NCBI GenBank assembly: GCA_011389735.1
Contig: JAABTS010000041.1
Coordinates: 1-38,434 of the forward strand
Length of the DNA: 38,434 bases
From: Desulfobacteraceae bacterium
GTDB taxonomy: Bacteria; Desulfobacterota; Desulfobacteria; Desulfobacterales; JAABTS01
Reading direction: 5' to 3'
In this document: positions 8,477 through 31,103 of the stretch, one piece after another
How the letters are laid out: each line of letters opens with the position of its first letter
How positions within the stretch are numbered: the first letter of the stretch is position 1
Translations under genes and position numbers: made by a program
Notes under the pieces: model-generated
What the model was told of the DNA's origin: nothing
The model's database searches: none
What the model saw: only the letters and a program-made list of their open reading frames with translations

Positions 8477-10042
8477 ATGCTTCGTATTTTTAAGGATGAT
8501 ATTCAAGAACCGGGCCGTTTTGTCATTACGCTGGAACTGGCTCCGGGACGGGAGCCGGGTGGGCGGTCCGTGGACACAATCACCGGAATTGCGGCCGACG
8601 CTTTTAAAGACGGACGTATTTCCGCGGTGTCCATAACGGACAATCCGGGAGGCAACCCCTCTTTAAGCCCGGATGTGATCGGCCATGAAATTTTCAAGCA
8701 AGGCATGGACGTGATCGTGCATTTTACATGCAGGGACATGAACCGGGTGGGCATGGAAAGCCGGGCGTTACAACTGGCCATGATGGGCATGAAAAACATT
8801 CTGGCGCTGAACGGGGATTTCGCGGGCAAGGGATTTGGAGGCCAGGGCGCGCCAGTGTTCGACCTGGATTCCGTAAACTTGCAGCGCATGCTCGGAATGT
8901 TGAATGAGCGGCTGAACGACATCGGCGATCCCGATGAATTTTTCACCGGTTGCGCAGTTTCCCCCTTTAAGACCACTGAAGGCGAGTGTTTCGCCCAATA
9001 CGCCAAACTTTGCAGGAAAATTTCCGCCGGCGCCCGATTTATCATCACCCAGTTGGGGTATGATATGGAAAAATTCCGAGAAGTATTGCTGATTCAAAAA
9101 CAAATGGAAACCTACCTGCCGACCCTGGCCTCGGTATACGTGCTGACGCCCAGAGCCGCGGCGATCATGAATCAGGGACTGATTCCAGGGGCGGTTGTGT
9201 CGGACAGCCTCCTTGACACGATAAACCGGGAATGGTCCGATCCCAAGTCGGGAAAAAAAGCGGCGATTGAACGCGCCGCTCGAATGAGCCTGATTTTAAA
9301 GGGTATCGGCTACAAGGGAATCCATATCGGCGGAGTCTACAAAGATTTTGACACCGCCGGAAAAATTCTGGATCGTATGACTGAAATCGAATCGAGGGGG
9401 CCTGAATTCATGGAAGAATTCCACATGCCTCAGCCTGGAAAATTTTACGCCTTTTCACGAAATACGGAAACCGAAACCCCTGTTTTACAATTCGGATTGC
9501 AAGCCAACCGGATCAGCTTCTTCGAGCGCGCACATTTTTATTGCATGAAATGCTTTCATTACCTTTTTTTCAATTTTAACTTTCCTCTGACACCATTATA
9601 CGAAAAAATCTGCCGATGGATAGACCGCACCAGGTTCAGGCGTCTCGCAATGCATTTCCTGGAATACCCGGCCAAAAACCTGCTATTGGGATGCCGCCAA
9701 TGCGGAGATTGCGGAATCCAGCACCTGGCGTTTCAGTGTCCGGAATCCGGATGCCCCAAACATACCCGAAACGGAGCGTGCGGCGGGAGTCTTGACGGCC
9801 GGTGCGAAGTATACAATGAGCGCCTGTGTGTTTGGTACAAAGCTTATAAACGCCTGCGATGCGCCAACGAGACAGGAACGATCGCCTCGGACTGCGTTCC
9901 CCCGCGTATGTGGGAACTGGACCGGACATCCTCCTGGCTTAATTTCCATCTGCGCCGGGATCACCAGAGCGCGTCGGGCGCGGTGGCGCGATTTTGCAAA
10001 TCCCGCACCTGCCGCCTTCCGAACGGAGAAAAAAACCGGTAA
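8477..10042 (+). CDS. methylenetetrahydrofolate reductase, MetF/MetV fusion
   Basis: A 521-residue cytoplasmic enzyme. Residues about 15-310 form the MetF TIM barrel that reduces methylene- to methyl-tetrahydrofolate with FAD (VSITDNPGG and HFTCRDMNR are typical, as is a conserved late RAARMSLILKGIGYKGIHIGG). The C-terminal part (about 350-480) is the cysteine-rich MetV-type domain: CMKCFHYLFF, then C406, C409 and C412 in GCRQCGDCG, and CPKHTRNGACGG. That domain probably carries an iron-sulfur or zinc site for interaction with a redox partner. In acetogens and sulfate reducers MetF and MetV are often separate, so the fusion merges both. It fits Wood-Ljungdahl C1 metabolism along with the CO dehydrogenase at 27-31 kb. 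AAGGAT precedes the start. It stands alone. Confidence 0.87.
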   Translation: MLRIFKDDIQEPGRFVITLELAPGREPGGRSVDTITGIAADAFKDGRISAVSITDNPGGNPSLSPDVIGHEIFKQGMDVIVHFTCRDMNRVGMESRALQLAMMGMKNILALNGDFAGKGFGGQGAPVFDLDSVNLQRMLGMLNERLNDIGDPDEFFTGCAVSPFKTTEGECFAQYAKLCRKISAGARFIITQLGYDMEKFREVLLIQKQMETYLPTLASVYVLTPRAAAIMNQGLIPGAVVSDSLLDTINREWSDPKSGKKAAIERAARMSLILKGIGYKGIHIGGVYKDFDTAGKILDRMTEIESRGPEFMEEFHMPQPGKFYAFSRNTETETPVLQFGLQANRISFFERAHFYCMKCFHYLFFNFNFPLTPLYEKICRWIDRTRFRRLAMHFLEYPAKNLLLGCRQCGDCGIQHLAFQCPESGCPKHTRNGACGGSLDGRCEVYNERLCVWYKAYKRLRCANETGTIASDCVPPRMWELDRTSSWLNFHLRRDHQSASGAVARFCKSRTCRLPNGEKNR

Positions 10043-10210
10043 GAAAACAAAAAAGGACGAGCTTACGGAGATTTCCAAAACAAAATATTCAAATGCAAAG
10101 GGCTGAAACACAAAGCTTCGGCCCCTATAGCCGGCAGGATAAATTACAAATCAAAAACGGGAGTCCGGCCGTCCGTATACGCCGGTGTGACGGTCGTTAC
10201 CGGTTCATGA
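10043..10210. other. gap between convergent genes, with a possible bidirectional hairpin
   Basis: No gene. A hairpin at about 10099-10125 pairs AGGGCTGAA with TTCGGCCC, with one wobble pair, around an ACACAAAGC-like loop. It closely resembles the stronger terminator at 11942-11974, sharing the GAAACACAA core. There is no strong T-run on either side, so terminator function for the two convergent genes is only plausible. Confidence 0.35.
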
Positions 10211-11476
10211 TCAGGGGATTTTTCGGAGTTCAAACGGTGAAAGAAGTTTCGTTGAATCAATGGAGGTGTTGTCCCCAAGATTGATCAGGAAAGAAGCCTC
10301 CACGGACGAATACATACCCTTAAATTGACGCAATCCTTTTAAATCCGATGGTGAAATTCCGGTTTTATATTTGATTTCAACAGGAATTTGAGTCCGGCCC
10401 CTGTCGATAATTACATCAACTTCATGCTGAGTCTTGGTCCTCCAGAATTTTATCGAATCCCGGTATTCCCCTTGCTTGATCAATTCCGAGATAACATATC
10501 CCTCAAACAAAAACGCTGCATCTTTCCGAATGGACATTGAATTGAAATTGTTTATAAAAAAATTCCTGACGCCGCTGTCCAGATAATAAACCTTGGGTTG
10601 CTTGACAATCTCCCTTTTTTTGTTGGTAAAGTAAGGCGTATGGATTGTTATCAAAAAGGTTTCCTGAAGAATCTCCAAATAATTCTTAGCGGTCTTTTCA
10701 TCTATCCCTGATGAGCTGGCGATAGAGCTATATTTTATTTCACACCCGTTATTCACTGAAAGGAGCTGAATCAGCGTCTTTGCACTTTTTAATTTCTCGA
10801 TGTTCAGATAATCTACAAGGTCTTTGGATACATACAAATCGAAAATGCTAGATAAAATTTCTCTTTTTTCCCTTTGTTCGGATAAAACGACTTCGGGATA
10901 CCCTCCGAAAATCATAAATTCTTCAAGCCTTTGATATGCTTCAGGAATTAGTTTATGTATTTCCCTGGAAGCAATCTCGGATATTTTTTCGAGCTTTTCA
11001 TTGAGTTCCGTTTCTCCTTTGAATAATAAAAATTCTGTAAAATTCAACGGATAGATACGTACCATCCGCTTTCTGCCCGCCAGACTTTCCTGCACTCTCC
11101 CGTTTATAACCAGTGATGACGATCCTGAAGCATAAATTTTGATGTTTTTATGATGGTCATACAAATTTTTCAAAACCAGGCTGATATCAGCATAGCGCTG
11201 GAATTCATCCAGAAAAAGATAAAACATTCCGGAATTTTCCTGCGTATAACCGTTGATCGTCAGTGTTCCGATCATTTTTTCATAGGTGCTGACTTTTTCG
11301 TAGTTCGAAAAAATGTCGAGATCCAGAAAAAGGCATTTTCCTTTTCCGCTCAAATCTTTGCAGAGTTTTTTCATTAAGGTGGTCTTCCCCACCTGCCGGG
11401 CGCCCGTCAGAATCGTTATTTTGTTTGATTCGCTTTGAGCCATAAGCTCCGGAAACACTTGCCGGTCAATATACAT
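10211..11476 (-). CDS. AAA family ATPase with DUF4143-like C-terminus
   Basis: A 421-residue cytoplasmic ATPase. The P-loop GARQVGKT is at residues 25-32, followed by LFLDLDIFSN, a Walker B in YLFLDEFQRY and a sensor-like IYASGSSSL. The C-terminal third, with FLFEGYVISELIKQG and FWRTKTQHEVDVIIDRG...PVEIKYK, is the DUF4143 domain, which resembles a PD-(D/E)XK nuclease core (E, D-x-I, E-x-K). Such proteins are very common and their role is unproven. A longer frame begins at 11515, but GGAGG four bases before the ATG at 11476 and the family's usual MYIDRQ-like beginning favour 11476. No partner gene is adjacent. Confidence 0.85.
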   Translation of the reverse strand: MYIDRQVFPELMAQSESNKITILTGARQVGKTTLMKKLCKDLSGKGKCLFLDLDIFSNYEKVSTYEKMIGTLTINGYTQENSGMFYLFLDEFQRYADISLVLKNLYDHHKNIKIYASGSSSLVINGRVQESLAGRKRMVRIYPLNFTEFLLFKGETELNEKLEKISEIASREIHKLIPEAYQRLEEFMIFGGYPEVVLSEQREKREILSSIFDLYVSKDLVDYLNIEKLKSAKTLIQLLSVNNGCEIKYSSIASSSGIDEKTAKNYLEILQETFLITIHTPYFTNKKREIVKQPKVYYLDSGVRNFFINNFNSMSIRKDAAFLFEGYVISELIKQGEYRDSIKFWRTKTQHEVDVIIDRGRTQIPVEIKYKTGISPSDLKGLRQFKGMYSSVEASFLINLGDNTSIDSTKLLSPFELRKIP

Positions 11477-14212: not shown

Positions 14213-15439
14213 ATGAAAGATTTTTTCAAAGTTTCGACGCTGAAAGAGGTATTGTCTCTTGTGGACAGATTTCAACCTGTAGGCATGGAGAAAATTCATA
14301 TCGATCGAGCGCTCGGACGAATAACGGCCGAAAAAATTGTCCCGGATTCGGATCTGCCGGCTTTTTCGAGATCGACCATGGACGGGTATGCGGTCAAGGC
14401 GTCGTCCACTTACGGGGCGTCCGAATCCAGTCCCGGCTTTTTAACCCTGGCTGGAATGGTGTTCATGGGAGACGTTCCGGAATTCAAAGTGGGCCCCGGC
14501 CAGGCGGCGGCCATATCGACGGGCGGTATGCTTCCGGATGGAACGGACAGTGTCGTAATGATCGAATATACGGAAAAGATCGACGACAGCGCGATCGAGA
14601 TCTATAAAAGCGTAGCGCCTGGAGAGCATGTGATCGAAGCGGGAGAAGACTTTCGCAGCGGGCAGGTCGCCATTGATATGGGGGTGAGGCTAAGGCCTCA
14701 GGAAACCGGATTGCTGGCCGCGTTTGGAAAAACTATGGTGAACGTTTATCGGAAACCCAAAATCGGCGTTATATCGACCGGAGACGAAGTGGTTCCCATC
14801 GAAGAAACTCCCGGCCCCGGCAAGATCAGGGATATAAACACCTACACTCTGGGGTCGTTCGTCCGGGAAACCGGCGCCGACCCCGTTTGTTTCGGAATCG
14901 CGCCGGACGATCGAGCATCTCTTTCGCATATCTGCGGCGAAGCGCTTGAACAATGCGACATGGTTCTGGTTTCCGGGGGCAGTTCGGTGGGAATCAGGGA
15001 TTATACGGTCGAAGTTTTTTCTTCGCTTCCGGATTCGCAAATGCTGACCCAGGGCGTATCGATCAGGCCGGGAAAGCCGACCATTCTCGCTGTAAGCGGC
15101 GGCACAGCATTTTGGGGATTGCCGGGCCACGCCGTATCCGCAATGATCGTTTTTCATACTACGGTCAAACCATTCATCGAAAGGATATCGGGGCTGAAAC
15201 CCGTCCCGAAATACGGAATACCGGCGGAATTGACTCGAAATTTGCCTTCGGCTCAGGGAAGAATAGATTACGTCCGGGTACGGATCAACCGGAAAGACGG
15301 CCGTTATTTCGCCGAACCCGTACTTGGGAAAAGCGGACTTTTAAACACCATGATCCTGGCCGACGGCCTGATCGAAATCGACAGGAACTCGGAAGGTCTC
15401 GAAAAAGGAGCGACCGTTTCGGTCCTCCTGATCCGGTGA
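14213..15439 (+). CDS. moeA: molybdopterin molybdenumtransferase MoeA
   Basis: A 408-residue cytoplasmic protein of the MoeA/gephyrin E family, which inserts molybdate (or tungstate) into adenylylated molybdopterin. It shows the early SRSTMDGYAV-like segment (FSRSTMDGYAV), TGGMLPDGTDSVVMIE, the MoCF-binding GVISTGDEVV, VSGGSSVG and RPGKPTILAV followed by WGLPGHAVSAM. In that last motif His replaces the usual Asn of GLPGNPVS. Length is normal. The start at 14213 avoids an upstream extension that lies in a repeat; the ribosome-binding site is weak. A second MoeA follows 58 bases downstream, so they are likely cotranscribed. Confidence 0.92.
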   Translation: MKDFFKVSTLKEVLSLVDRFQPVGMEKIHIDRALGRITAEKIVPDSDLPAFSRSTMDGYAVKASSTYGASESSPGFLTLAGMVFMGDVPEFKVGPGQAAAISTGGMLPDGTDSVVMIEYTEKIDDSAIEIYKSVAPGEHVIEAGEDFRSGQVAIDMGVRLRPQETGLLAAFGKTMVNVYRKPKIGVISTGDEVVPIEETPGPGKIRDINTYTLGSFVRETGADPVCFGIAPDDRASLSHICGEALEQCDMVLVSGGSSVGIRDYTVEVFSSLPDSQMLTQGVSIRPGKPTILAVSGGTAFWGLPGHAVSAMIVFHTTVKPFIERISGLKPVPKYGIPAELTRNLPSAQGRIDYVRVRINRKDGRYFAEPVLGKSGLLNTMILADGLIEIDRNSEGLEKGATVSVLLIR

Positions 15440-15497
15440 CGGTTGTATACCATAAAACCAGCTCAATCAAGAATTGACCAGGAGAACCATCGCATCC

Positions 15498-17426
15498 ATG
15501 AAATCGAAAAGACATATTTATTTGAACATGAAGACTCTTGAAGCGGCTCAATCGATCGTATCCCGAATCGCCGCTCGACACCTCCCTCTTTCGACGGAAA
15601 CAGCGGCGGTTCCCGATTCGGTCGGAAGAACGCTGGCCGAACCCGTTTTCGCCCGCTTATCGTCGCCGGCGTTTCATTCCGCGGCCATGGACGGAATAGC
15701 GGTAAACGCCGAAGACACTTACGGAGCCGCTGAGTACGATCCAAAAATCCTCACGGAGGGAGAAAACGCTTTTTATGTGAATACGGGCAATATGCTTCCT
15801 GAGAACACCAATGCGGTCATCATGATCGAACATGTCAATATTTCGGAAGACGGGCGAATTACCGTCGAAGCACCGGCCTACCCCTGGCGGCATGTCCGTA
15901 AAGTCGGCGAAGACATTGTCGCCACCGAGCTTCTATTTCCTACGAACCATGTCGTGACTCCCTATTGCATTGGAGCGCTTTTGAGCGGCGGACTATTCAA
16001 GGTCAATGTCCAGCGGAAACCGAAAATTCTGATTATACCGACCGGATCGGAACTCGCCGACGTATCGGACACGGATATCGAAACCATGCAGCCGGGACGA
16101 ATTATCGAAAGCAATTCCCATGTTCTGGGAAATCTCGTCAACGCCTGCGGCGGCGAATATCGAAGACATCCGATCGTCTCCGACGATTTTGAAACAATCA
16201 AAAACGCTGTCGATCAGGCGGTTCACGGCGAATACGATATTGTTCTGGTATTGGGCGGATCTTCGGCCGGTTCCGAGGATTACTCCGGAGACGTTATCCG
16301 GGAACTGGGCGAAATTCATGTACACGGAGTCACCATGATGCCCGGCAAGCCTGTAGTGATCGGCGTGGTCAAAAACAAGCCGGTTTTCGGCGTTCCCGGA
16401 TATCCGGTGTCCGCCATTATGGTTTTTGAACAATTTATCGGCCCGCTGATCTGCAAGCTCCTGGGGAAACCCTATGGCGAGCGCAATGTGATCGACGTTC
16501 TCCCGACGCGTAAAATTCCTTCAAAACTGGGGCTGGAGGAATTCGTGAGGGTGAAAATAGGGGTGGTGGGCGACAAAACGGTGGCCACGCCCTTGCCTCG
16601 CGCCGCAGGATGTATCACGTCGATTACCGAAGCCGACGGAATTATTCGAATTCCCAATCATATTGAAGGATTGAACAGTAGCGAACCTGTCTCGGCGGAA
16701 TTGCTTCGGCCTGAATCGTCTATCCGGGAAACCGTGGTTGTTGTCGGAAGCCATGACAACTCGCTGGATATATTGGCGGACCGGCTCAAAAAAACCGACA
16801 ACCGGTTTTCGTTGTCATCCAGCCATGTCGGAAGTATGGGAGGCCTGATGGCCGTCAAGCGGGGCATGTGCCATATGGCCGGAACCCATCTGCTTGACGC
16901 CGAAGACGGTTCTTACAATATTTCCTATATCGAACGGTATCTTCCGGATGTGGAGGTGCGGCTCGTTCACCTGGTGCGAAGAGATCAGGGCTTGATCGTG
17001 GCGAAAGGGAACCCAAAAAACGTTTCCGGCGTTGAAGATCTTACCCGGAAAGAGATCCGATACATCAACAGACAGGGGGGTTCCGGAACCCGGATATTGC
17101 TTGATTACCGCCTTCAGCAGCTAAAAATCGATTCCAGCATGATTTCAGGATATGAAAACGAAGAATTCACGCATATGGCTATAGCGGCGGCCGTTTCGAG
17201 CGGCGCCGCTGACGCGGGACTGGGAGTTCATGCGGCGGCCCGGGCGTTGAACCTGGATTTTATCCCGGTCGTTACGGAACAGTATGATATTGTAATTCCG
17301 GCCTGTTTTTTTGAATCGGATTCAATTCAAACTCTTCTCCAGGTTATCCGGTCCCCGGAGTTTATCAAACAGGTCGAATCTCTCGGCGGATATGGAACGG
17401 AACGGACTGGGGAAATCCTTCTATAG
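15498..17426 (+). CDS. MoeA fused to a C-terminal periplasmic-binding-protein-like domain
   Basis: A 642-residue cytoplasmic protein. Residues about 10-400 are MoeA (FHSAAMDGIAV, TGNMLPENTNAVIMIE, IIPTGSELAD, LGGSSAGSEDYS, MPGKPVVIGV, FGVPGYPVSAI). Residues about 415-640 form the PBP-like domain (VVVVGSHDNSLDILADRL, SHVGSMGGLMAVKRG, IRYINRQGGSGTRILLDY) known from MoeA/LysR-substrate-type fusions, which probably senses or holds an oxyanion or nucleotide. The ATG at 15498 gives the familiar MKxKRxIYLxMKTLEEA-like beginning; a TTG at 15474 is the alternative, and AGGAG lies between them. Paired MoeA proteins in anaerobes may divide Mo and W insertion; this is known speculation, not shown here. 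Confidence 0.9.
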   Translation: MKSKRHIYLNMKTLEAAQSIVSRIAARHLPLSTETAAVPDSVGRTLAEPVFARLSSPAFHSAAMDGIAVNAEDTYGAAEYDPKILTEGENAFYVNTGNMLPENTNAVIMIEHVNISEDGRITVEAPAYPWRHVRKVGEDIVATELLFPTNHVVTPYCIGALLSGGLFKVNVQRKPKILIIPTGSELADVSDTDIETMQPGRIIESNSHVLGNLVNACGGEYRRHPIVSDDFETIKNAVDQAVHGEYDIVLVLGGSSAGSEDYSGDVIRELGEIHVHGVTMMPGKPVVIGVVKNKPVFGVPGYPVSAIMVFEQFIGPLICKLLGKPYGERNVIDVLPTRKIPSKLGLEEFVRVKIGVVGDKTVATPLPRAAGCITSITEADGIIRIPNHIEGLNSSEPVSAELLRPESSIRETVVVVGSHDNSLDILADRLKKTDNRFSLSSSHVGSMGGLMAVKRGMCHMAGTHLLDAEDGSYNISYIERYLPDVEVRLVHLVRRDQGLIVAKGNPKNVSGVEDLTRKEIRYINRQGGSGTRILLDYRLQQLKIDSSMISGYENEEFTHMAIAAAVSSGAADAGLGVHAAARALNLDFIPVVTEQYDIVIPACFFESDSIQTLLQVIRSPEFIKQVESLGGYGTERTGEILL

Positions 17427-19284: not shown

Positions 19285-21090
19285 ATGAAATTTCCATACG
19301 GCATATGCGATTTTGCAAAAATAAGAACCCAGGGGCATTTTTATTGCGACCGTACAGGCCTCATACCTCAACTTGAACTTGGGGAGTTCTTGCTGTTCAT
19401 CCGCCCGAGGCGGTTCGGCAAAAGCCTTTTGCTGTCGATGCTGTACAATTATTATGATGTGGCGAAGGCCGGCGAATTCGACATGATGTTCGGCGGTCTT
19501 GAAATCGGTAAACATCCGACGCCTTTGCACAATCAATATTTTGTGCTGCAATGGGATTTTTCCTGTGTGGATTCTTTTGGAGAAGTTCATGAAATCAAGC
19601 GGGCGCTGCATGACCATATCAACGCTCAGATAAATCATTTCAAGGTTTATTACAGGCGTTTTTTAAAAATGAACATTGAAATAGATCCGCAAAACGCCAT
19701 CACCAGCATCCAATGCCTGATAACGGCTGCCCAGATGACCGGCTATCCAGTGTACCTGCTCATCGATGAATACGACAATTTCGCCAATGAGATCATGATG
19801 GGCGTACATAGGGATAAACAACGAAAATACGAGGCCCTGGTTTATGAAGAGGGACCGTTGCGGACACTGTTCAAGGCCATCAAATCGGCCGCCGGCCGGT
19901 CCCTGTTCGACCGGATTTTCATCACCGGCGTTTCCCCGGTGGTTATGAGCGATATCACCAGCGGATACAATATCGCCAAAAATATTTATCTTAAACCTGA
20001 ATTCAATACTCTTTGCGGTTTCACCGCCGATGAGATCCGTAACGCAGTGGAAACAGCAGGCCGGGAATGCGGTTTTGACGAGGAACGCACCCTCGAAGCT
20101 CTGAATATGATGCGTACATGGTACAATGGTTACAAATTTTCGTCCGGCGCCTCGAAACCGGTCTACAATCCCACGTTGACCCTCTACTTTCTGGATGAAT
20201 TGCAGGAAACCTGTCAATATCCCAGAAAAATGCTGGACACCAATCTGGCCATGGACGCCGGCAAGCTGGAATATATCGCGCAACTCCCGAAAGGCGGCCA
20301 GTTGCTGTTGAATCTCATGCGGGAAGACCGCCGCGTGTTGATCGATGAACCGGCCGACCGGTTCGGAATCCGGGAGATGTTGTCGGATCAAAGCAAGAAC
20401 CATGTGTTTATGGTCTCATTTCTTTATTATTTCGGCGTCCTTACGATCGCCGAAGTGATTGAAACCGGCGAACTGGCGCTGACGGTTCCCAACCTGGTAA
20501 TCAAAAAGCTGTATGTGGAAAAAATTCAGACCATGCTGCTCCCGGAACCGGGGGACCAGGACGACGGCGCCAACGCCGCTAAAGCCCTTTATCAGAAAGG
20601 CGACATGGGCCCCTTGTGCGAATTCGTCGAACAGCGCTATTTCAAGGTGTTTCACAACCCCGATTACCGATGGGCCAATGAATTGACCGTAAAAACGGCC
20701 TTTTTGACTCTGCTGTACAACGACATCCTGTATGTCATGGATTCCGAAAGCGAAATCGACCGGCGCTACGCCGACCTCACCATGATTATCCGCCCGGATA
20801 TGCGGAAATACAAGATCCTGGACATTCTGATCGAATTCAAATTCGTTACATTGAAAGAAGCCGGATTGACCGGAGAACAGGCCCGGAATCTGACGGACGA
20901 GAAACTGGCCGCTCTGCCGCCGATGATCCGTGAGATGGAAGAGGCCCAAAAGCAGGTCGCCGAATACGGCCGCGCTCTGGAAAAACGGCATGGAAATCTG
21001 CGGCTTCGCAAATACTCAGTGGTTTCTCTCGGTTTTGAACGGATCTGGTGGAAGGAAACCGGCGATAAACGATTCGATATAAACACTTGA
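19285..21090 (+). CDS. AAA-ATPase-like protein with C-terminal PD-(D/E)XK nuclease domain
   Basis: A 601-residue protein. The N-terminal AAA-ATPase-like region begins MKFPYGICDFAKI; the nucleotide-binding loop is RPRRFGKSLLLSML (about residues 41-54), and a Walker B lies in LLIDEYDNFANEI. The C-terminal domain (about 510-600) has the PD-(D/E)XK_9 signature DILIEFKFV with a preceding conserved Glu/Asp region. Members occur in very many copies in Desulfonema, Bacteroidetes and clostridia and may be selfish or defence-related; function is unproven. The start at 19285 is supported by GGAG; a TTG at 19267 is less likely. It is flanked by repeats on both sides, which fits a mobile history. Confidence 0.85.
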   Translation: MKFPYGICDFAKIRTQGHFYCDRTGLIPQLELGEFLLFIRPRRFGKSLLLSMLYNYYDVAKAGEFDMMFGGLEIGKHPTPLHNQYFVLQWDFSCVDSFGEVHEIKRALHDHINAQINHFKVYYRRFLKMNIEIDPQNAITSIQCLITAAQMTGYPVYLLIDEYDNFANEIMMGVHRDKQRKYEALVYEEGPLRTLFKAIKSAAGRSLFDRIFITGVSPVVMSDITSGYNIAKNIYLKPEFNTLCGFTADEIRNAVETAGRECGFDEERTLEALNMMRTWYNGYKFSSGASKPVYNPTLTLYFLDELQETCQYPRKMLDTNLAMDAGKLEYIAQLPKGGQLLLNLMREDRRVLIDEPADRFGIREMLSDQSKNHVFMVSFLYYFGVLTIAEVIETGELALTVPNLVIKKLYVEKIQTMLLPEPGDQDDGANAAKALYQKGDMGPLCEFVEQRYFKVFHNPDYRWANELTVKTAFLTLLYNDILYVMDSESEIDRRYADLTMIIRPDMRKYKILDILIEFKFVTLKEAGLTGEQARNLTDEKLAALPPMIREMEEAQKQVAEYGRALEKRHGNLRLRKYSVVSLGFERIWWKETGDKRFDINT

Positions 21091-22411: not shown

Positions 22412-22843
22412 ATGAATATAAAAAAATGGTCGGGAATCGGCATTCTCATTGTGGTGGCCCTGGCCGCCTTGATTTTCGATTCAATGGGCCGTAAGGAAGG
22501 CCCCCTTCATTTTACAATCCCATTTACCAGCGGCGTTCAGATTGAGACATCGTCTTTGAGCGCCGTCGATGAAATCGCTTCGGCCATGCTCACTCATCCC
22601 GAATATGAAGCGATTATCGAAGGCCATACCGGCGTTCGCGGGGATCCGGAAATAAATCAACAATTGAGTTCCGAACGAGCCGAATATATCAAAAAACGGC
22701 TTATTGAAAAAGGGGTTTCGGCCGGCCGGATCAAAACGCTTGCGTTGGGCGGCGGCAAACCTCCAGCGAAACTTCCGGACGAAGGAGACCGGTCCTATGA
22801 ACGGCGGCTCCGGCGGGCGGAAGTAATCTTAACTCCAAATTAA
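22412..22843 (+). CDS. OmpA-domain protein with N-terminal membrane anchor
   Basis: A 143-residue envelope protein. A hydrophobic N-terminal segment (about residues 5-23, WSGIGILIVVALAALIF) probably anchors it in the inner membrane, and residues about 35-142 form a minimal OmpA C-terminal-like domain: FTSGVQIETSSLSAVDEIA, IIEGHTGVRGDPEINQQLSSERAEYIK and LGGGKPP, with the final basic ERRLRRAEVIL strand. Such domains bind the diaminopimelate peptide of peptidoglycan. An ATG at 22382 would add ten residues; neither start has a strong ribosome-binding site. It is the first gene of a five-gene cassette, and the next gene also ends in an OmpA domain. Confidence 0.8.
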   Translation: MNIKKWSGIGILIVVALAALIFDSMGRKEGPLHFTIPFTSGVQIETSSLSAVDEIASAMLTHPEYEAIIEGHTGVRGDPEINQQLSSERAEYIKKRLIEKGVSAGRIKTLALGGGKPPAKLPDEGDRSYERRLRRAEVILTPN

Positions 22844-22861
22844 CGATCAAGGAGAGGAAAT

Positions 22862-24589
22862 ATGCGCGTGCAACAACGATTCCTGGTCCTCGTGCTGATG
22901 ATGCTGTTATGCTCCACGGCGCATGCGTTTGACTACGTCAAAATGAAGCCGTTGAGAGAAACCAAACCGCCGACTATCAAGGATTGCCGGAAGGCCGATC
23001 CTCTGGTGGTTCCCATGCGAACGTCGGGAGCTCATATTGTTCCGCTTTTCGGTAATGGATACGATCTGGAAACAGGGAAGGACAGTTTGTTCAAAAAGGA
23101 AGGGCTGAATATCCGCTTGATGCTGGAAAACAGTATCGTAAAACAGCTCGAAAACTATATGTCCTGCAAATCGCCGTTCATGGCCGGGACTCAGGGCATG
23201 ATCAACGCTGTAGCCGATGTCGCCGAGGCGGACCCGAGAACCCGGATGGTCGCCGTCTATCAACACGCATGGTCGAACGGCGGAGATGCGCTGGTGGTGA
23301 GAGACCGAATCAAGACGCCGGCGGATCTGTCGGGTTCGGTCATTGTCACCCAGGCCTATGGTCCTCACCTGGAATACCTGACCCGGGTTCTTTCCGACGC
23401 CGAGCGATCAGTCAAGGAAAAAGGCGGAACATGGAAAACGCCGGAAATCCTTTACACCGAAGCCCTGCTCGGATTTTCGGATCATACGCCGGGCCTGGCT
23501 TTTTTCGAAGACGATCAGGTTGACGCCGCCTTTATGGTCAAACCGGACGCCATGCTGCTGACCAGCGGCGGAAAGATCGGGACAGGCGCCGAAGGATCGG
23601 TCAAAGGCGCTCACATTCTGCTGTCCACCAAATCAGCGAGTCGCTTGATTTCGGAAATATACGTGGTTCGCCGGGATTTTTTCGAAGCCGAGCGGGATAC
23701 GGTTAAAAAATTTGTTCAGGCGCTGTTCAAAGCGGAAGAAGTCGTTCGGGAAAACGTCCTCAAGCTGATCGTGGATTGGGAGGCTGTAGCGCGACACCTG
23801 CTCGACGATCCGGGGGCGATCCGGGAGGCTGAAAACCTGTGGACCGATATCGAAACCGTCGGCATGAAGGGGAACGTGGATTGGGTCAATCCCTCGAAGA
23901 ATCGTAGTTTCCAGAGCATTAACAATGAAATCCAAAACGCGCTGACCTCAATGGGGCTGATGAAAAAAGCCTACGCTTTTCAGGTGGCGAAATGGGATTA
24001 CGGCGGCATGTCCGGCGATCTGTTCGATCAACGGCGAGCCTCATTGCCGGGGTTCGATGAAAACATGACCGGAAAGGTCGTAGATCGTATGAAAAAAAGC
24101 GGCGAACTGGAAAAAGAAACGCTGTTTGAATTCAATATTCATTTCAAGCCCAATCAACGGGACTTTTCGGAAACTGAATACAAGGAAGAATTCGAACGAG
24201 TGATCGAACTGTCGTCCACTTACGCCGGGGCCGTCCTGACTATAGAAGGACATTCCGATCCCCTCAACTATCTTCGACAAAAGGCGAAGGGCGCGCCGCA
24301 GCACCAATTACGAAGCATCCGGCAATCGGCCAAGAATTTGAGCATCAACCGCGCCATATCGGTTCGGGACAGCATCATCCAATTCGCTGATGAAAGAGGT
24401 GTGACGCTTGACGAATCCCAGTTTGTCACGGTCGGATACGGCGTCACCGAACCCAAAACCGGCATCTGCGGAGGCGATCCCTGTCCGCCGAAAACCGAAG
24501 CGGAATGGCTTTCCAATATGCGGGTGAATTTCCGCATGGTTCAGGTGGAAGCGGAAGCGTCGGTCTTTACGCCGCTCAATACCTGGTAG
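22862..24589 (+). CDS. periplasmic binding protein fused to an OmpA peptidoglycan-binding domain
   Basis: A 575-residue exported protein. A signal peptide (1-22, cleaved after TAHA) is followed by a type II solute-binding region, about 45-370, of the NMT1/TauA/phosphate-type (VPMRTSGAHIVPLFGNG, FMAGTQGMINAVADVAEADP, GSVIVTQAYGPHLEYL). From about 420 to 570 lies an OmpA C-terminal domain: FEFNIHFKPNQRDF, LTIEGHSDP (460-467), LSINRAISVRDSI and a terminal MRVNFRMVQVE strand. A CGGDPCPP insert adds a possible disulfide. The product would be a binding protein anchored to peptidoglycan. The strong AAGGAGAGG sets the start. It is 18 bases after the small OmpA gene and 10 before a vWA gene; no ABC permease is present. 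Confidence 0.87.
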   Translation: MRVQQRFLVLVLMMLLCSTAHAFDYVKMKPLRETKPPTIKDCRKADPLVVPMRTSGAHIVPLFGNGYDLETGKDSLFKKEGLNIRLMLENSIVKQLENYMSCKSPFMAGTQGMINAVADVAEADPRTRMVAVYQHAWSNGGDALVVRDRIKTPADLSGSVIVTQAYGPHLEYLTRVLSDAERSVKEKGGTWKTPEILYTEALLGFSDHTPGLAFFEDDQVDAAFMVKPDAMLLTSGGKIGTGAEGSVKGAHILLSTKSASRLISEIYVVRRDFFEAERDTVKKFVQALFKAEEVVRENVLKLIVDWEAVARHLLDDPGAIREAENLWTDIETVGMKGNVDWVNPSKNRSFQSINNEIQNALTSMGLMKKAYAFQVAKWDYGGMSGDLFDQRRASLPGFDENMTGKVVDRMKKSGELEKETLFEFNIHFKPNQRDFSETEYKEEFERVIELSSTYAGAVLTIEGHSDPLNYLRQKAKGAPQHQLRSIRQSAKNLSINRAISVRDSIIQFADERGVTLDESQFVTVGYGVTEPKTGICGGDPCPPKTEAEWLSNMRVNFRMVQVEAEASVFTPLNTW

Positions 24590-24599
24590 GAGGAACGGT

Positions 24600-25406
24600 A
24601 TGAAGTTTTTTTACTGGATAATACCCGTCGTCATTTGTTTCGGAGTGTTCAGTTGCGGCGAAGAAACTCCGACATCGAAGCAGGGCGCTGATAATGGTCG
24701 ATCCGATGTCGCTCAAAGAGATTATAAAGTGTATACCGTCGCGGAAGTAAAAAAAGCGGTCTGGCCGAAACCGGGCCCTGAAGAGATTCAAGCCTTTGAT
24801 CCGGTCTTGACCCGGGACAACTACATGGCGGTGCTTGACATGAGCGGGTCCATGAAGGAATCCAACTGCTCCGGAAAATACGGCAGCAAGGCCGAGGCTG
24901 CTCGGGAGGCTCTGGCCGTATGGCTGAACAGTGTTCCCAGAAACGCCAATGTAGGGCTGGTGGTGTTTTCGAGCAATCGGGTGCAATTAAAAGTTCCTCT
25001 GGGCGTCGACAACAGGGACAGGTTTATTCAGGCGGTGCAGACCACCAGGCCGGACGGCAAAACCCCTCTAAAGGACGCGCTTGCAATGGCCTACAATGAA
25101 CTGGAAAGGCGCGCCCGCCACCAGCAGGGCTATGGGGAGTACCGGATTGTCGTCATCACGGACGGCATGCACAGCAGCGGCCAGAATCCGGGCCCGGTGG
25201 TCGAGGCGATTTTGAATAACCCGGCGAATCCGGTGTTGATATACACCATCGGGTTTTGTATCGATGAATCCGCGCTTCATCAGCCGGGCAGAACCATGTA
25301 TCAAAGCGCTTCCAATCCTGACGAACTTTCCAGAGGGCTCAGCCAGGTGCTGGCCGAATCCAGCCAATTCGACACCATACAGGAGTTTCAGAACAATGCG
25401 GATTAA
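24600..25406 (+). CDS. von Willebrand factor A domain lipoprotein
   Basis: A 268-residue envelope protein. The N-terminus has a hydrophobic signal and a probable lipobox VFSC with Cys19, so it should be a lipoprotein. The vWA domain (about 70-255) has a complete metal-ion-dependent adhesion site: DxSGS (D80, S82, S84 in LDMSGSM), T155 in GKTPL and D188 in VITDGMH. It would bind protein partners through a divalent cation. AGGAGG precedes the start. It lies between the binding protein-OmpA fusion (10-base gap) and an OpuAC-like binding protein (11-base overlap). In related loci vWA proteins act as partners of XpaC/TelA-type proteins; this is inferred. Confidence 0.87.
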   Translation: MKFFYWIIPVVICFGVFSCGEETPTSKQGADNGRSDVAQRDYKVYTVAEVKKAVWPKPGPEEIQAFDPVLTRDNYMAVLDMSGSMKESNCSGKYGSKAEAAREALAVWLNSVPRNANVGLVVFSSNRVQLKVPLGVDNRDRFIQAVQTTRPDGKTPLKDALAMAYNELERRARHQQGYGEYRIVVITDGMHSSGQNPGPVVEAILNNPANPVLIYTIGFCIDESALHQPGRTMYQSASNPDELSRGLSQVLAESSQFDTIQEFQNNAD

Positions 25407-26292
25407 CACCTTTGTTTCAAAGAAAAATCAGATTGTTTCAGCCGTCGCGGCGTTGCTGCTGATTGTGACATGTATATCGAGCCACGCCGGCCAGTGGAAA
25501 CGGCGGCCGGATGTCATTATCGGGTGGACCGCCTGGGCTGACGCCGAAGTGGTCAGTAAAATGGCGGCCATCATTCTTTCAAGGGGCATGAAACTGGATG
25601 TGGAATTGACTCTGGCCGATGTGGCTGTTCAATACCGGGGAATCGCCGAAGGCGATCTTGACGCCATGCTTATGTCCTGGCAGCCCAAAACTCATGCGGA
25701 TTACTTGCATCGATACGGCGATAAAATGGAAGATTTGGGCGTTTTATACAGCGGCGCCAATCTGGGGTGGGTAGTCCCTGATTATATCCCCAAAGAAACC
25801 TTGAATTCAATTGCCGATCTGGCCAAACCCGACGTCCGGGCGAAACTAAACGGGAAAATCCAGGGAATCGGGGCAGGCGCCGGGATTATGGCCATGAGCC
25901 GCAGGGCCTTGAAAGAATACAATCTGGATTATGAACTCGTTGTTTCCAGCGGGCCCGCAATGGCCATGCGGATCGGCAAGGCGGTCGCCAAAAAAGACTA
26001 TATCGTGGCGACCGGGTGGCGGCCTCACTGGAAGTTCGCCGAATATCCGCTCCGGTATCTCGAAGATCCCAAAGGAATTTTTAAGGGCGCTGAATCCGTC
26101 CACGCCACAGGGCGGTTAGGATTCAAAAAAGAAAAACCGCTTGCGGCCGGTTTTTTAAACCGGATGGAATTTACGCTCGCCGAACTGGAGGAACTCATGG
26201 CCGAAGCGCGAAAAACATCCCAACGGGATGCGATCATGAGCTGGATTCAGAACAACAAGGATAAAGTCTCTTACTGGATGAAAGGTAAGTGA
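25396..26292 (+). CDS. OpuAC-like glycine betaine/proline-type binding protein
   Basis: A 298-residue exported binding protein. After a signal peptide (about 1-28, hydrophobic VSAVAALLLIVTCISS) comes a ProX/OpuAC-type domain: VIIGWTAWADAEVV, LTLADVAVQYRGIAEGDLDAML, SWQPKTHADYLHRYGDK, then IPKETLNSIADLAK and ATGWRPHWKFAEYPLRYL. The Trp-rich positions resemble the aromatic cage that binds quaternary amines such as glycine betaine or choline. The true start is ATG 25396 (AGGAG upstream) although an in-frame reading begins earlier. It overlaps the vWA gene by 11 bases and the next gene by 4. Without a transporter beside it, a sensing role, or function with a distant ABC system, is likely. Confidence 0.87.
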   Translation: MRINTFVSKKNQIVSAVAALLLIVTCISSHAGQWKRRPDVIIGWTAWADAEVVSKMAAIILSRGMKLDVELTLADVAVQYRGIAEGDLDAMLMSWQPKTHADYLHRYGDKMEDLGVLYSGANLGWVVPDYIPKETLNSIADLAKPDVRAKLNGKIQGIGAGAGIMAMSRRALKEYNLDYELVVSSGPAMAMRIGKAVAKKDYIVATGWRPHWKFAEYPLRYLEDPKGIFKGAESVHATGRLGFKKEKPLAAGFLNRMEFTLAELEELMAEARKTSQRDAIMSWIQNNKDKVSYWMKGK

Positions 26293-26948
26293 AAACCGAC
26301 AGCATATTCCAATTCAAAAGCGAAACGACGCCGTCGATCATCGCAGGCGTTCTAAGCGGCGCTCTCTTTCTGGTGTTCCATTATGTTCTTGAATTCCCCC
26401 AGCGGATGTTCCCAGGGGACTTCATGCTGTCCCTGGGGCTTGCAGCATTGAGCTTTGCCGGCCTTTACCTCCTTTTGCCCCATCCCGTGCTTCTAAAAGA
26501 CAGGCTGACGAAAATCGCCGAAAAAGCCGGCATCGACCCGGAAAAACTGGCGGATCACATTGAGACGAGCCGTGCTAAAATCCAGACAATCCGTAATATC
26601 AATCAGGAAATCCCCGGCTACGCGCACAGGCGGATCGAAAAAATCGCAAACAACGCAGACAAGATTATCGACGGAATAATGGAAGATCCCGAAGACATGG
26701 ACAGATCCTATAACTTCCTCTACCAGTACCTGGGCGCCACCGTGGATATCGTTCGACAATATGCGGAGTTACACCAAAAAAAATCCGCCAAAAACGTGCG
26801 TCAGGTGCTCAAAAAAGCCGACGAAACTCTTTCGGAAATCGAATACGTATTCGAACAACAATACCTGCGAAACCTCGATAACGAAGCTCAATCCCTGGAT
26901 GTCAACCTGGAAGTCCTTCGAAGGACAATGATCGATGAAGGGCTGTAA
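26289..26948 (+). CDS. XpaC-like membrane protein (5-bromo-4-chloroindolyl phosphate hydrolysis family)
   Basis: A 219-residue inner-membrane protein starting with GTG that overlaps the previous stop by 4 bases (GTGA). Two hydrophobic segments at about 16-34 and 46-66 precede a long helical cytoplasmic part. The later part, with SYNFLYQYLGATVDIVRQYAELH and final DNEAQSLDVNLEVLRRTMIDEGL, matches what I recall of the XpaC family; the enzymatic name of that family is probably misleading. XpaC-type proteins usually occur with TelA (toxic anion resistance) proteins, and no TelA is found in this window. Together with the binding protein, vWA and OmpA genes it makes a coherent envelope cassette of unknown job. 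Family assignment is by pattern recall. Confidence 0.65.
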   Translation: MKTDSIFQFKSETTPSIIAGVLSGALFLVFHYVLEFPQRMFPGDFMLSLGLAALSFAGLYLLLPHPVLLKDRLTKIAEKAGIDPEKLADHIETSRAKIQTIRNINQEIPGYAHRRIEKIANNADKIIDGIMEDPEDMDRSYNFLYQYLGATVDIVRQYAELHQKKSAKNVRQVLKKADETLSEIEYVFEQQYLRNLDNEAQSLDVNLEVLRRTMIDEGL

Positions 26949-27438
26949 TATTTAAATTCGGCATAGTTACGCCTTTATCCTGGCGTTTCCAAACAATCTT
27001 CTTGACAAAGTTCGATCACTATTTAAACTTTTGCTATTAAGACGTTTATTCCCCTTTGGAGGTTTATGCGAACGGAAAGCGGGAAAACCAGAAGGAAAGT
27101 AAGAGTGCGCGGGCATCCCTCCCATACGAATGCGCAACCAGCATAAATAGTGGATGAACGAAAACTCCTCACGCTTCCAGGGGATTTGTGCAATCCTCGC
27201 CGGCCGCGAGAGGGGACACCCGGGTTACAAACCCGCTCAGAGCATTATTTTGAGACTTTTCGTTCAACCACTAAAAGACCGGTTGCCGGCGTATCTTATC
27301 AAAATGCATCAAACCTTTATCTCATTCGAGCTCATTTCGAAATATATGTCATGTTTCATTTTTCAATCCCGACAATTTCGGTAATATGTTGATCAGGCGA
27401 CTGTTTTTTATAATTTTATTCAGAAGAGGAGGATTCCA
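26949..27438. other. 490-base gap with repeat B copy 5 and the upstream region of the CO dehydrogenase operon
   Basis: No gene is supported; the short open frames here run through the repeat. Family-B copy 5 occupies 27150-27271. A TTGACA (27003-27008) is followed after 17 bases by TATTTA-like DNA near 27020, a possible weak promoter. AGAGGAGGA sits directly before the CooS start. No CooA/Crp-type dyad was recognised. Confidence 0.4.
27150..27271 (-). repeat. dispersed repeat family B, copy 5 (inverted)
   Basis: Reverse-oriented copy: starts GTGGATGAACGAAAAC, ends CTTTTCGTTCAACCAC, with GCGGGTT-type hairpin GGGTTACAAACCC and a decayed second hairpin (GGGGATTTGTGCAATCCTC). It lies in the leader region upstream of the CO dehydrogenase operon. 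Confidence 0.85.
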
Positions 27439-29319
27439 ATGGCCTATGATGAAAAAATTTTAGAAAAAAGTATTGATCCCAGCGTCCACAAGATGCTGAG
27501 CCGGGCGGCGGAGCTGCACATTGAAACCGCGTGGGACCGGTATGAAAAAATGCTTCCGGAATGTGGATTCGGCGAACTTGGCGTTTGTTGCAGGAATTGC
27601 AACATGGGACCGTGCAGAATCAGCCCCTTTGACGATCATGGTCCAAAGAAAGGAGTTTGCGGCGCCACGGCCGATATTATCGTGGCCCGAAATCTGGTAC
27701 GCATGATCGCCGGCGGCGCCGCGGCCCATTCCGATCACGGCAGGGATCTGGCGCATACGCTGTTGATGACTGCGGAAGGTAAGAGCAGCGGCTATGAAAT
27801 CAAGGACGAAGTAAAACTGAAAACACTGGCAGTTGAATACGGGATCCCCGTGGACGGCCGCACAAAGGAGGAAATCGCTCTGGATCTGGCGAAAGCCGCC
27901 TATGCTGAATTCGGAAAACAGGAAGGATTCATTCAGTTTACCCGGCGGGCCCCTGAAAAGCGCGTGGCGTTATGGAAAAAGCTCGGTATCGACCCTCGGG
28001 GAATCGACCGTGAAATTGTGGAGATCATGCATCGAACTCATATTGGCGTGGATAACGACCCGGTCAATCTCATCCTCCAGGGGCTCAAGGCTTCCATCGC
28101 CGATGGATGGGGAGGTTCGGCCATAGCCACGGAACTTTCGGACGTGCTTTTCGGGACCCCGGTTCCGGTAAGATCCCAGTCCAACCTGGGCGTTTTGAAA
28201 AAAGATCACGTAAATATAATTGTTCACGGCCATGAGCCCGTTCTTTCTGAAATGGTCGTCGCCGCCGCCGGTGATCCAGGCCTGGTGTCCCAGGCTGAAA
28301 AAACAGGAGCTAAAGGAATCAATGTGGTGGGAATTTGCTGCACAGGCAATGAAGTTTGCATGAGGCACGGTATTCCCATGGCCGGCAATTTTTTGCAGCA
28401 GGAACTGGCGGTCATTACGGGCGCCGTGGAGGCGATGATCGTGGACGTGCAATGTATCATGCCGTCGCTGGGTCCCCTGAGCGAATGCTTCCATACGAAG
28501 TTTATTTCCACTTCCCCTAAAGCTAAATTCCCCGGCGCGCTTCACATGGAATTTCATGAAGAAAAAGCCCTGGGTATTGCAAAAGAAATCGTTCAGGCGG
28601 CGGTGGATAATTATCGTTCCCGGGATCAGGATAAAGTGATGATCCCCGAGGACAAAACCGAATGCATGGTGGGTTTCAGCACGGAAGCCGTTGTCCGGGC
28701 CCTGGGAGGGACTCTCGATCCGCTCCTGGAAGCTGTCAAGACCGGAAAAATCAGGGGAATCGCCGGCGTGGTGGGGTGCAACAACCCCAAAATCAAGCAC
28801 GATCACGGCCATATCGGCCTGGTGGAAGAGCTGATCAAACACGATGTCCTGGTGACGTCGACGGGCTGTAACGCCATGGCCTGCGCCAAGAGAGGATTGC
28901 TGCTGCCGGAAGCCGCTGAACAGGCCGGAGAGGGCCTGAAATCCGTTTGTCAGGCGCTTGGGATTCCACCTGTGCTTCACATGGGGTCATGTGTCGATAT
29001 CAGCCGTATCCTGACGGTCTGCGCCGCTATCGCCAACGCTCTGGGGGTGGATATCAGCGATTTGCCGGTCGCCGGCGCGGCGCCGGAATGGATGAGCGAA
29101 AAAGCGGTGAGTATCGGGTCGTATGTGGTGTCTTCCGGAATCTTCACGGTTTTGGGAACCGTGCCGCCGGTGCTCGGAAGCCCGGTCGTCACCGAAGTGC
29201 TGACCCGCACCGCCAATGACGTGGTTGGTGCGACTTTCGCGGTGGAGACGGACCCGGTCAAGGCGGCGGCCCTGATGATCGCCCATATCGACGCCAAACG
29301 TAAAGCTCTTGGCGTTTGA
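27439..29319 (+). CDS. cooS: anaerobic CO dehydrogenase, catalytic subunit CooS
   Basis: A 626-residue nickel-iron-sulfur enzyme that oxidises CO to CO2 (or the reverse). The N-terminal cysteines give the D cluster (C42, C50) and the B cluster (C51, C54, C59, C74) in GVCCRNCNMGPCR...GVCG, three residues offset from the crystallised Carboxydothermus enzyme. C-cluster features follow: GICCTGNEVCMRHG, VQCIMPSL, the VGCNNPKIKHDHGH and TSTGCNAMACAKRG motifs, and HMGSCVDISR. The size is typical of monofunctional CooS rather than AcsA. AGAGGAGGA precedes the start. It is followed by a ferredoxin and a flavoprotein; no CooC maturation gene is adjacent, so nickel insertion must rely on a distant gene. 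Confidence 0.95.
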   Translation: MAYDEKILEKSIDPSVHKMLSRAAELHIETAWDRYEKMLPECGFGELGVCCRNCNMGPCRISPFDDHGPKKGVCGATADIIVARNLVRMIAGGAAAHSDHGRDLAHTLLMTAEGKSSGYEIKDEVKLKTLAVEYGIPVDGRTKEEIALDLAKAAYAEFGKQEGFIQFTRRAPEKRVALWKKLGIDPRGIDREIVEIMHRTHIGVDNDPVNLILQGLKASIADGWGGSAIATELSDVLFGTPVPVRSQSNLGVLKKDHVNIIVHGHEPVLSEMVVAAAGDPGLVSQAEKTGAKGINVVGICCTGNEVCMRHGIPMAGNFLQQELAVITGAVEAMIVDVQCIMPSLGPLSECFHTKFISTSPKAKFPGALHMEFHEEKALGIAKEIVQAAVDNYRSRDQDKVMIPEDKTECMVGFSTEAVVRALGGTLDPLLEAVKTGKIRGIAGVVGCNNPKIKHDHGHIGLVEELIKHDVLVTSTGCNAMACAKRGLLLPEAAEQAGEGLKSVCQALGIPPVLHMGSCVDISRILTVCAAIANALGVDISDLPVAGAAPEWMSEKAVSIGSYVVSSGIFTVLGTVPPVLGSPVVTEVLTRTANDVVGATFAVETDPVKAAALMIAHIDAKRKALGV

Positions 29320-29350
29320 TTCAATTTCATGTAAACGAAAGGAGCGGATT

Positions 29351-29854
29351 ATGACGCAACCCAAGGAAATATTCGTCAAAACGGATCGATGCGTCGGCTG
29401 TCTTTCCTGTACGATCGCCTGCGCGGTGGCGCATTCAAACAGTAGAACCCTGTTCGGCGCCGTATTCGAAAAACCGGTTCCCAAAAGCCGAATCTATGTG
29501 GAATGGTCTGATCCGGACAAAAAAATTCCGCTGGTCTGCCGGCACTGCGAAGAAGCCCCGTGCATGTTCGCCTGCATCAGCGGAGCAATCCATCGCGATG
29601 AAAACGGTGTGGTGCTTACGGACACAGACAAGTGCATCGGATGCTGGACCTGTGTGATGGTGTGTCCATACGGCGTTATCGGACGTCATCTGGAAACCCA
29701 TAAAGCCTACCGGTGCGACCGCTGTCCGGATCGAGACGTTCCCGCCTGTGTCAGCGCCTGTCCCACCGGCGCGCTGGTCTATGAAACCGCGGCAAGCTTT
29801 TCCGGAGCCGTTCGTAAAAGCGCATCCAGGGAACTCATCAGATCGGAGGGATAA
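29351..29854 (+). CDS. cooF: CooF-like polyferredoxin, four [4Fe-4S] sites
   Basis: A 167-residue iron-sulfur protein with 16 cysteines in four groups: CVGCLSCTIAC, CRHCEEAPCMFAC, CIGCWTCVMVC and CDRCPDRDVPACVSAC, the pattern of the CooF/HycB/DmsB family. It takes electrons from CooS and passes them to a partner, here most probably the FAD oxidoreductase encoded four bases downstream. AAAGGAGCG upstream sets the start at 29351; the earlier in-frame reading overlaps the cooS stop and lacks a ribosome-binding site. It is 31 bases after cooS and clearly in the same operon. Confidence 0.92.
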   Translation: MTQPKEIFVKTDRCVGCLSCTIACAVAHSNSRTLFGAVFEKPVPKSRIYVEWSDPDKKIPLVCRHCEEAPCMFACISGAIHRDENGVVLTDTDKCIGCWTCVMVCPYGVIGRHLETHKAYRCDRCPDRDVPACVSACPTGALVYETAASFSGAVRKSASRELIRSEG

Positions 29855-29858
29855 CGTC

Positions 29859-31103
29859 ATGGAAGAATCGACCCGGTATTTGATTGCAGGGGGCGGCGCC
29901 GCGGGAATGGCGGCCGCTCACGCGATCCGAGAAATCGATCAAGAAGGTACAATTACGCTGTTGACGGATGAAGCGGATCAACCTTATTTCAGGCCATTGA
30001 TACCGTTTCTGGTGTCCGGCGAAAAAAAAGATTCAGACATGTTTATGGCAGGTTCCGGGCCGTATAAGAGCGGAAATGTTTCCGTGCGAACCGGAAGTCT
30101 GATCACATGGTTTGATCCGGAGCAAAAAACGGTATACCTGGAAAACGGCGGCCGAATAGGTTATGAAAAAATCCTGTTCGCCACAGGGAGCCGCCCTTAT
30201 ATTCCGCCGGATATCGAAGGGCTGGACGCTGACGGAGTGTTTGCACTTCGAACCATGGCCGACGCCCGCAGCATGGCGAAACGTGCGGAACAAACCAGTC
30301 ACGCCGTGATGCTAGGCGGAGGCGTTCTCAATTTGAAGGCCGCATTCGCGCTTTTGAAAAAAGGCTTGAAAGTGACGCTAATTGTTTATTCTCCGGAAGT
30401 GCTGTCCCAGCTAATGGAACCGGAAGACGCCTTTTTGATCAGGAAAGCCCTGGATCAGGCGGGACTCAAAATCATCAACGGACGCAGCGCCGAAATCGTC
30501 CTGTCCGGCAAAAACGGGGTGGACGCCGTAGGACTCGATAATGGACGGGAGCTGTCCTGCGGCATGGTTTGTATAGGAAAAGGGGTCAGCCCCAACGTGC
30601 ATTTTCTCGAAGGAAGCGGCGTCATTGTAGACGGCGGCGTGGCGGCCGATATGTATACGGCCTGTAATATAAAGGACGCATACACAGCCGGCGATGTCGC
30701 TGTCGCTTATGATCCGGTGTCCGGTGACCGCATGGTCACGGCCCTGTGGACCAACGCAGTTGAAATGGGACGGTGCGCCGGTAAAAACATGGCCGGAGTC
30801 AAAACGAAGTACTCCGGAACCTTCGGGATCCTGAACGCGACTCAAGTGGCCGACGAACCATTCGTCTCCATGGGAACCGTTCACACAAAGGAGGGGGATT
30901 TCGAAGTTCAGCGCAGCAGCACGGCCGGTTCCTACCGCAAAATGGTGTTCAACGCGGGAGGAGACCGGTTGATCGGCGCCGTGCTGGTGGGCGATATCAC
31001 AAACGCCGGGCTTTACCGCTACGTCATTCGCGAAAAAAAACCCGTCGATCGCATTAAACAAAATATTATCGATCATACGCTGCATTACGGCCATTTTGTA
31101 TGA
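29859..31103 (+). CDS. FAD-dependent NAD(P)-type oxidoreductase of the CO dehydrogenase operon
   Basis: A 414-residue cytoplasmic flavoprotein of the pyridine nucleotide-disulfide oxidoreductase fold. It has an N-terminal FAD dinucleotide fold (YLIAGGGAAGMAAAHAI), ILFATGSRPYIPP, a second nucleotide-binding GGGVLNLKAAFALLKKGLKVTLI (about residues 145-170; its second Gly triplet is modified) and YTAGDVAVA before the C-terminal domain. It is the class found in cooS-cooF-FNOR clusters, which couple CO oxidation to NAD(P) reduction. CGGAGGG precedes the start. It closes the operon; no strong terminator follows, only a hairpin at 31156-31190. Confidence 0.87.
   Translation: MEESTRYLIAGGGAAGMAAAHAIREIDQEGTITLLTDEADQPYFRPLIPFLVSGEKKDSDMFMAGSGPYKSGNVSVRTGSLITWFDPEQKTVYLENGGRIGYEKILFATGSRPYIPPDIEGLDADGVFALRTMADARSMAKRAEQTSHAVMLGGGVLNLKAAFALLKKGLKVTLIVYSPEVLSQLMEPEDAFLIRKALDQAGLKIINGRSAEIVLSGKNGVDAVGLDNGRELSCGMVCIGKGVSPNVHFLEGSGVIVDGGVAADMYTACNIKDAYTAGDVAVAYDPVSGDRMVTALWTNAVEMGRCAGKNMAGVKTKYSGTFGILNATQVADEPFVSMGTVHTKEGDFEVQRSSTAGSYRKMVFNAGGDRLIGAVLVGDITNAGLYRYVIREKKPVDRIKQNIIDHTLHYGHFV

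Follow-up and report, generated by a model that had tools for sequence, protein, structure and literature searches.

A five-gene cassette for binding proteins, OmpA domains, a VWA lipoprotein and XpaC, lacking telA, in a Desulfobacteraceae genome

Introduction

The window analyzed here, a stretch of 38,434 nucleotides from a Desulfobacteraceae bacterium, contains five consecutive genes for envelope proteins. In the initial annotation these were read as a ligand- or stress-sensing system spanning the periplasm and the inner membrane. This raises the question of whether the five genes belong together and, if so, what they do.

Gene content and layout

The cassette consists of five intact ORFs, all on the + strand (Table 1). 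Their coordinates, together with inspection of the junction sequences, confirmed the gaps of 18 and 10 bases and the overlaps of 11 and 4 bases described initially, and the five genes are considered to be one real operon. The proposed domains were recovered in a Pfam HMM search of each protein, which identified OmpA, NMT1 with OmpA, VWA, OpuAC and XpaC (PF10112). Values of dN/dS were well below 1 for all five genes, ratios which are rough because dS was near or above saturation, and the remaining five genes are judged from these sequence comparisons to be still under purifying selection. PADLOC gave no anti-phage defence assignment for the cassette; the only matches were weak ones between the OmpA domain and MotB-like ZorB.

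Table 1. Features of the cassette and of the stretch following it (window positions)
Feature	Position	Strand	Evidence
OmpA-domain protein with TM anchor, 143 aa	22412..22843	+	Pfam OmpA 3.5e-14; motif alignment; hydropathy
NMT1/SsuA-type solute-binding protein with C-terminal OmpA domain, 575 aa, signal peptide	22862..24589	+	Pfam, profile search
Lipoprotein with VWA domain, 268 aa, MIDAS DMSGSM	24600..25406	+	VWA_2 3.3e-16; lipobox and MIDAS from sequence
OpuAC-type quaternary-amine-binding protein, 298 aa	25396..26292	+	Pfam OpuAC 1.7e-61; PDB 3l6g 9.7e-45
XpaC (PF10112), two N-terminal TM helices and helical bundle	26289..26948	+	PF10112 4.6e-22
Stretch matching the telA position of three relatives	26949..27438	no strand	no telA remnant (tblastn)

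Three neighboring loci may also be recorded. A PF09820 AAA-ATPase_like gene with a sub-cutoff PDDEXK_9 match lies upstream of the cassette (19285-21090), and genes of the same family flank the cassette of one relative (L015) on both sides (353-1915 and 9557-11122). Downstream (27439-31103) is a gene cluster for a CO dehydrogenase (Prismane/CooS family), a 4Fe-4S protein and a pyridine-nucleotide oxidoreductase. Two consecutive MoeA genes were found at 14213-17426, the second of which is fused to a PBP_like domain.

Proteins of the cassette

The fusion protein matched NMT1 (1e-5) and OmpA (6.3e-5) in Pfam, the latter at 23.7 bits and therefore below the cut-off of 27.2. This sub-threshold domain is supported by a profile of 15 sequences, which matched OmpA of Acinetobacter baumannii (3td3; E 7e-6 for the whole chain). 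Both the Asp and the Arg of the domain are conserved, D466 being invariant and R497 nearly invariant across 15 relatives. These two residues bind diaminopimelate (PMC12108004), and the wall-binding fusion initially described thus held up. The same profile matched TauA (6ssy, 2.9e-8), and the nearest proteins to the NMT1 domain are taurine and sulfonate binding proteins; of the original label 'NMT1/phosphate type', the first half stands and the second is better replaced by NMT1/SsuA/TauA type. A structure model of the fusion was set aside due to its low confidence (pLDDT 41). No relatives of the fusion were seen in a scan of viral contigs.

In the first OmpA protein, the m-DAP Asp is replaced by Gly (GHTG) in all five gene copies while the Arg is kept. 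The VWA lipoprotein carries DMSGSM, GKTPL and TDG in addition to its VWA_2 match, which bears out the intact MIDAS noted before. In the OpuAC protein, W47, W95 and W208 align with the Trp cage of OpuAC (3l6g), being equivalent to W330, W377 and W484 of the Lactococcus lactis protein (the numbers W330 and W377 were counted along the aligned chain); the Trp-prism, including W484, has been described (PMC2861598). Since all three cage tryptophans are kept, the alignment points to a quaternary amine as the likely ligand. The last gene product is a true XpaC, as had been suggested, with 79.4 bits against the curated PF10112 cut-off of 29.8, and is the only match above this cut-off in its genome. Its AlphaFold model, a weak one (pLDDT 68), is all-helical, and a fold search with this model gave no significant match.

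Conservation of the cassette in relatives

The five genes were found in identical order in two Desulfobacteraceae MAGs (L015 and L016) and in the halophile Vreelandella jeotgali (L017), a gammaproteobacterium and thus a member of another phylum. Identities of the window proteins to those of L015, L016 and L017, respectively, were 49, 48 and 39% for the first gene, 73, 72 and 58% for the fusion, 64, 64 and 54% for the VWA protein, 73, 69 and 53% for OpuAC and 55, 54 and 35% for XpaC. In a tree of the fusion protein, the window, L015, L016, Vreelandella and both copies from G586, a genome of the Halomonadaceae sample, formed one clade with 100/100 support which crosses phyla and is set apart from the remaining fusions in the order to which the window belongs. 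The initial annotation had allowed for a chance cluster should the genes not stay together elsewhere. Because the order is the same in three genomes and the fusions form one 100/100 clade, the comparison shows that the cassette is co-inherited and not such a cluster. The cross-phylum clade fits spread by horizontal transfer.

The fusion is rare, being found in 14 of 146 relatives from the order, 3/395 genomes of the phylum sample, 2/201 of the Halomonadaceae sample and 3/369 of the Gammaproteobacteria sample (each count includes the centre genome of its sample). Among distant relatives, the genes for the VWA protein and the fusion adjoin in nearly every case where the contig does not end there.

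Two departures from the basic layout were observed. In the L015 cassette, two genes are inserted after the fusion gene and ahead of vwa (4160-6033); they encode an AAA_21 ATPase and a DUF4276 protein which match the PADLOC candidate system HEC-01A/B. The G586 locus (L046, 5826-12548) is a variant in which telA lies between two copies of the fusion, a TM protein replaces XpaC and there is no VWA match.

Absence of telA

A TelA connection of the XpaC gene had been anticipated and was borne out, as telA directly follows xpaC in L015, L016 and L017 (PF05816, 1.9e-103 for L015). In the window, 490 bases separate xpaC from the next gene, that of the CO dehydrogenase. A tblastn search of positions 26901-27460 with two TelA types found no telA remnant above chance. 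The check for TelA elsewhere in the genome, as proposed in the initial annotation, was negative: neither Pfam nor the L015 protein as query detected it; the absence is likely rather than proven, as the genome is 96.9% complete. By comparison with its relatives, the window cassette is regarded as a telA-less form from which telA has been lost. TelA is present in 11 of the 14 other genomes holding the fusion and was absent from G446, G127 and G011, the last being just 83% complete; G446 has an otherwise complete module. A relative-rate test with L017 as outgroup showed no acceleration in xpaC or any other cassette gene. Relaxed constraint on xpaC following the loss of telA was considered and rejected, as this test found no extra change in the window xpaC.

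A wider module

Related loci with a larger gene set were found in Desulfobacterota (L018, L019, L021, L025 and L047), Gammaproteobacteria (L080 and L081) and on Vibrio plasmids (L029 and L030). This wider module encodes an NMT1-OmpA fusion, a VWA protein, a further SBP-OmpA protein anchored in the membrane, a helical 2-TM protein and usually TelA, together with parts of an ABC transporter; SBP, permease and ATPase are all present in several loci, and the SBP of the Vibrio plasmid module is of the TIGR03427 type. The same set occurs in the 595-kb genome of an uncultured phage (LR756511, L032), where a coiled-coil protein takes the TelA slot.

The first OmpA protein of the window matched the SBP-OmpA protein of L018 (blastp 4.6e-19, 37% over 107 columns). 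Both have an N-terminal TM and share the signature GHTGxRGD, and the m-DAP Asp is also lost in nearly all SBP-OmpA relatives of the first protein (motif alignment). The first gene is therefore homologous to the C-terminal OmpA half of the TM-SBP-OmpA protein, and the window cassette is a split form, in which the OmpA part and the binding protein each have a gene of their own and XpaC stands in the place of the 2-TM protein. That these two parts are fused in the wider module and separate here argues that they act together. The XpaC and 2-TM slots are equated by position and topology only, since homology between the two proteins was not supported (profile probability 2.3%). The window cassette thus looks like a cut-down relative of the wider module, for which no description was found in the open-access literature searched; this stress or transport module is apparently undescribed, though an earlier mention is possible.

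In the phage genome, the binding-protein/VWA/ABC-transporter module (L032, 9914-18476) is followed by a DnaJ-like gene, and Lak phages (L033) encode an ABC ATPase as well as proteins partially related to the fusion. A PspA-like partner in the TelA slot of L026-L028 and of the phage was considered on the basis of a weak Pfam match (0.029), and was supported neither by a PDB profile search nor by comparison with TelA.

Proposed role and alternatives

It is tentatively proposed, with confidence a little short of even, that the cassette serves in envelope stress as a wall-tethered module which responds to quaternary amines and derives from an ABC system linked to TelA. The five genes form one operon for a cell-envelope module, in which the NMT1-OmpA protein would be a periplasmic binding protein tethered to peptidoglycan through its OmpA domain, and the OpuAC protein would have a quaternary amine, for example glycine betaine or choline, as its ligand. 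The inner membrane is the tentative site of both XpaC and the TM-OmpA protein, and the MIDAS of the VWA lipoprotein could bridge the binding proteins to them. Ligand or envelope strain would alter the binding proteins, and XpaC would respond on the membrane's inner face. Relatives may pass this response on to TelA, a helical protein lying beneath the membrane, whereas in the window organism TelA would have been lost and the other five retained. We infer complex formation, the VWA bridge, signalling and a stress role of the cassette, as well as ligand sensing by the binding proteins.

A ligand-responsive, wall-tethered module is suggested by the Trp cage, the NMT1 affinity, dN below dS, the lack of acceleration and the Firmicutes regulons, since xpaC-telA pairs are part of envelope-stress regulons in Gram-positives (PMC3498285, PMC12791056, PMC3139573); the stress role would be carried over from these pairs by analogy. 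The proposal is further favored by the conserved order, the fusion clade, the telA link, the wider modules and the Asp/Arg pair. Counting against it, TelA, the best-characterised partner, is missing from the window cassette, no regulator gene lies within the five-gene operon, and the 2-TM protein of the TelA-linked ABC type shows no demonstrable similarity to XpaC.

The main rival, given a ProVWX-like set in the window's own genome, is betaine supply in trans. As a transport auxiliary, the OpuAC protein, and perhaps the NMT1 protein, would capture an osmolyte near the wall for ABC permeases encoded elsewhere, amounting to split uptake with no sensor. The initial annotation had stressed the lack of a permease or ATPase. 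Neither occurs among the window cassette genes (ORFs, Pfam), so this is not a complete ABC importer; this lack does not define the type of module, because the wider module usually encodes both and the genome has its own transporter. The latter (L078), recognised by similarity to the ATPase and permease of the module and not by a curated model, lies beside another OpuAC gene, and the surroundings of four further OpuAC-type genes (L075, L076, L077 and L079) matched neither the ABC ATPase nor the permease queries. The intact Trp cage would equally suit capture. However, this explanation leaves the VWA protein, XpaC and the telA link unaccounted for, and the genome has just two weak matches (29-30% identity) to the wider-module permease. 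This explanation is considered fairly unlikely but a live alternative.

Lower still is the probability of a structural link from wall to membrane, where the OmpA domains, VWA protein and XpaC would brace the membrane in the manner of Tol-Pal/MotB-type anchors and the binding domains would be protein-protein modules in place of ligand sensors. Two OmpA-domain proteins, a VWA lipoprotein and the wall-binding pair of the fusion are in keeping with this, whereas the loss of the m-DAP Asp, seen in the first OmpA protein and in almost every one of its SBP-OmpA relatives, is not, and a purely structural role would not be expected to preserve the OpuAC Trp cage in full. That the operon is a non-functional remnant, disappearing after the loss of telA, is very unlikely despite this loss and the mere 54-55% identity of xpaC to its nearest relatives, as all five ORFs are intact with dN/dS well below 1, the relative-rate test argues against decay and G446 also retains a telA-less module.

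Comparison with known systems

The envelope-stress module proposed here resembles the XpaC-TelA pair (xpaC-yaaN) of the Firmicutes sigma-W, LiaRS and CesSR regulons in having a true XpaC, with telA next to it in the three nearest relatives. It differs in that the window has no telA, and in that xpaC is set among genes for periplasmic binding proteins, OmpA domains and a VWA protein. With the Ter/TelA chemical-stress systems (PMC7824862) it shares TelA in relatives, a VWA protein and occurrence on plasmids and in a huge phage; however, no TerB, TerC or TerD was identified by inspection (rather than by model search) of the loci, and the VWA protein is a lipoprotein and not of the TerF type. The OpuA/ProU/ChoX betaine-choline ABC systems likewise have an OpuAC-fold binding protein with conserved Trp cage, but the window operon is without permease or ATPase. 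NMT1-type binding domains are common to the SsuA/TauA/TIGR03427 ABC systems, and the wider module also has a TIGR03427-type SBP, permease and ATPase; what differs is that the binding domain has an OmpA fusion partner and is accompanied by TelA and VWA.

A broader interpretation, possible though doubtful, is that of a scattered envelope module of wall-tethered binding proteins, VWA protein, 2-TM protein and usually TelA, with or without an ABC transporter, which would link small-molecule binding at the wall with inner-membrane protection of the TelA type and which plasmids and huge phages also carry. The presence of TelA and XpaC in conserved operons alongside parts for ligand binding, wall binding and transport provides testable partners and candidate ligands, and the occurrence of the module on Vibrio plasmids as well as in a huge phage suggests that its benefit is portable.
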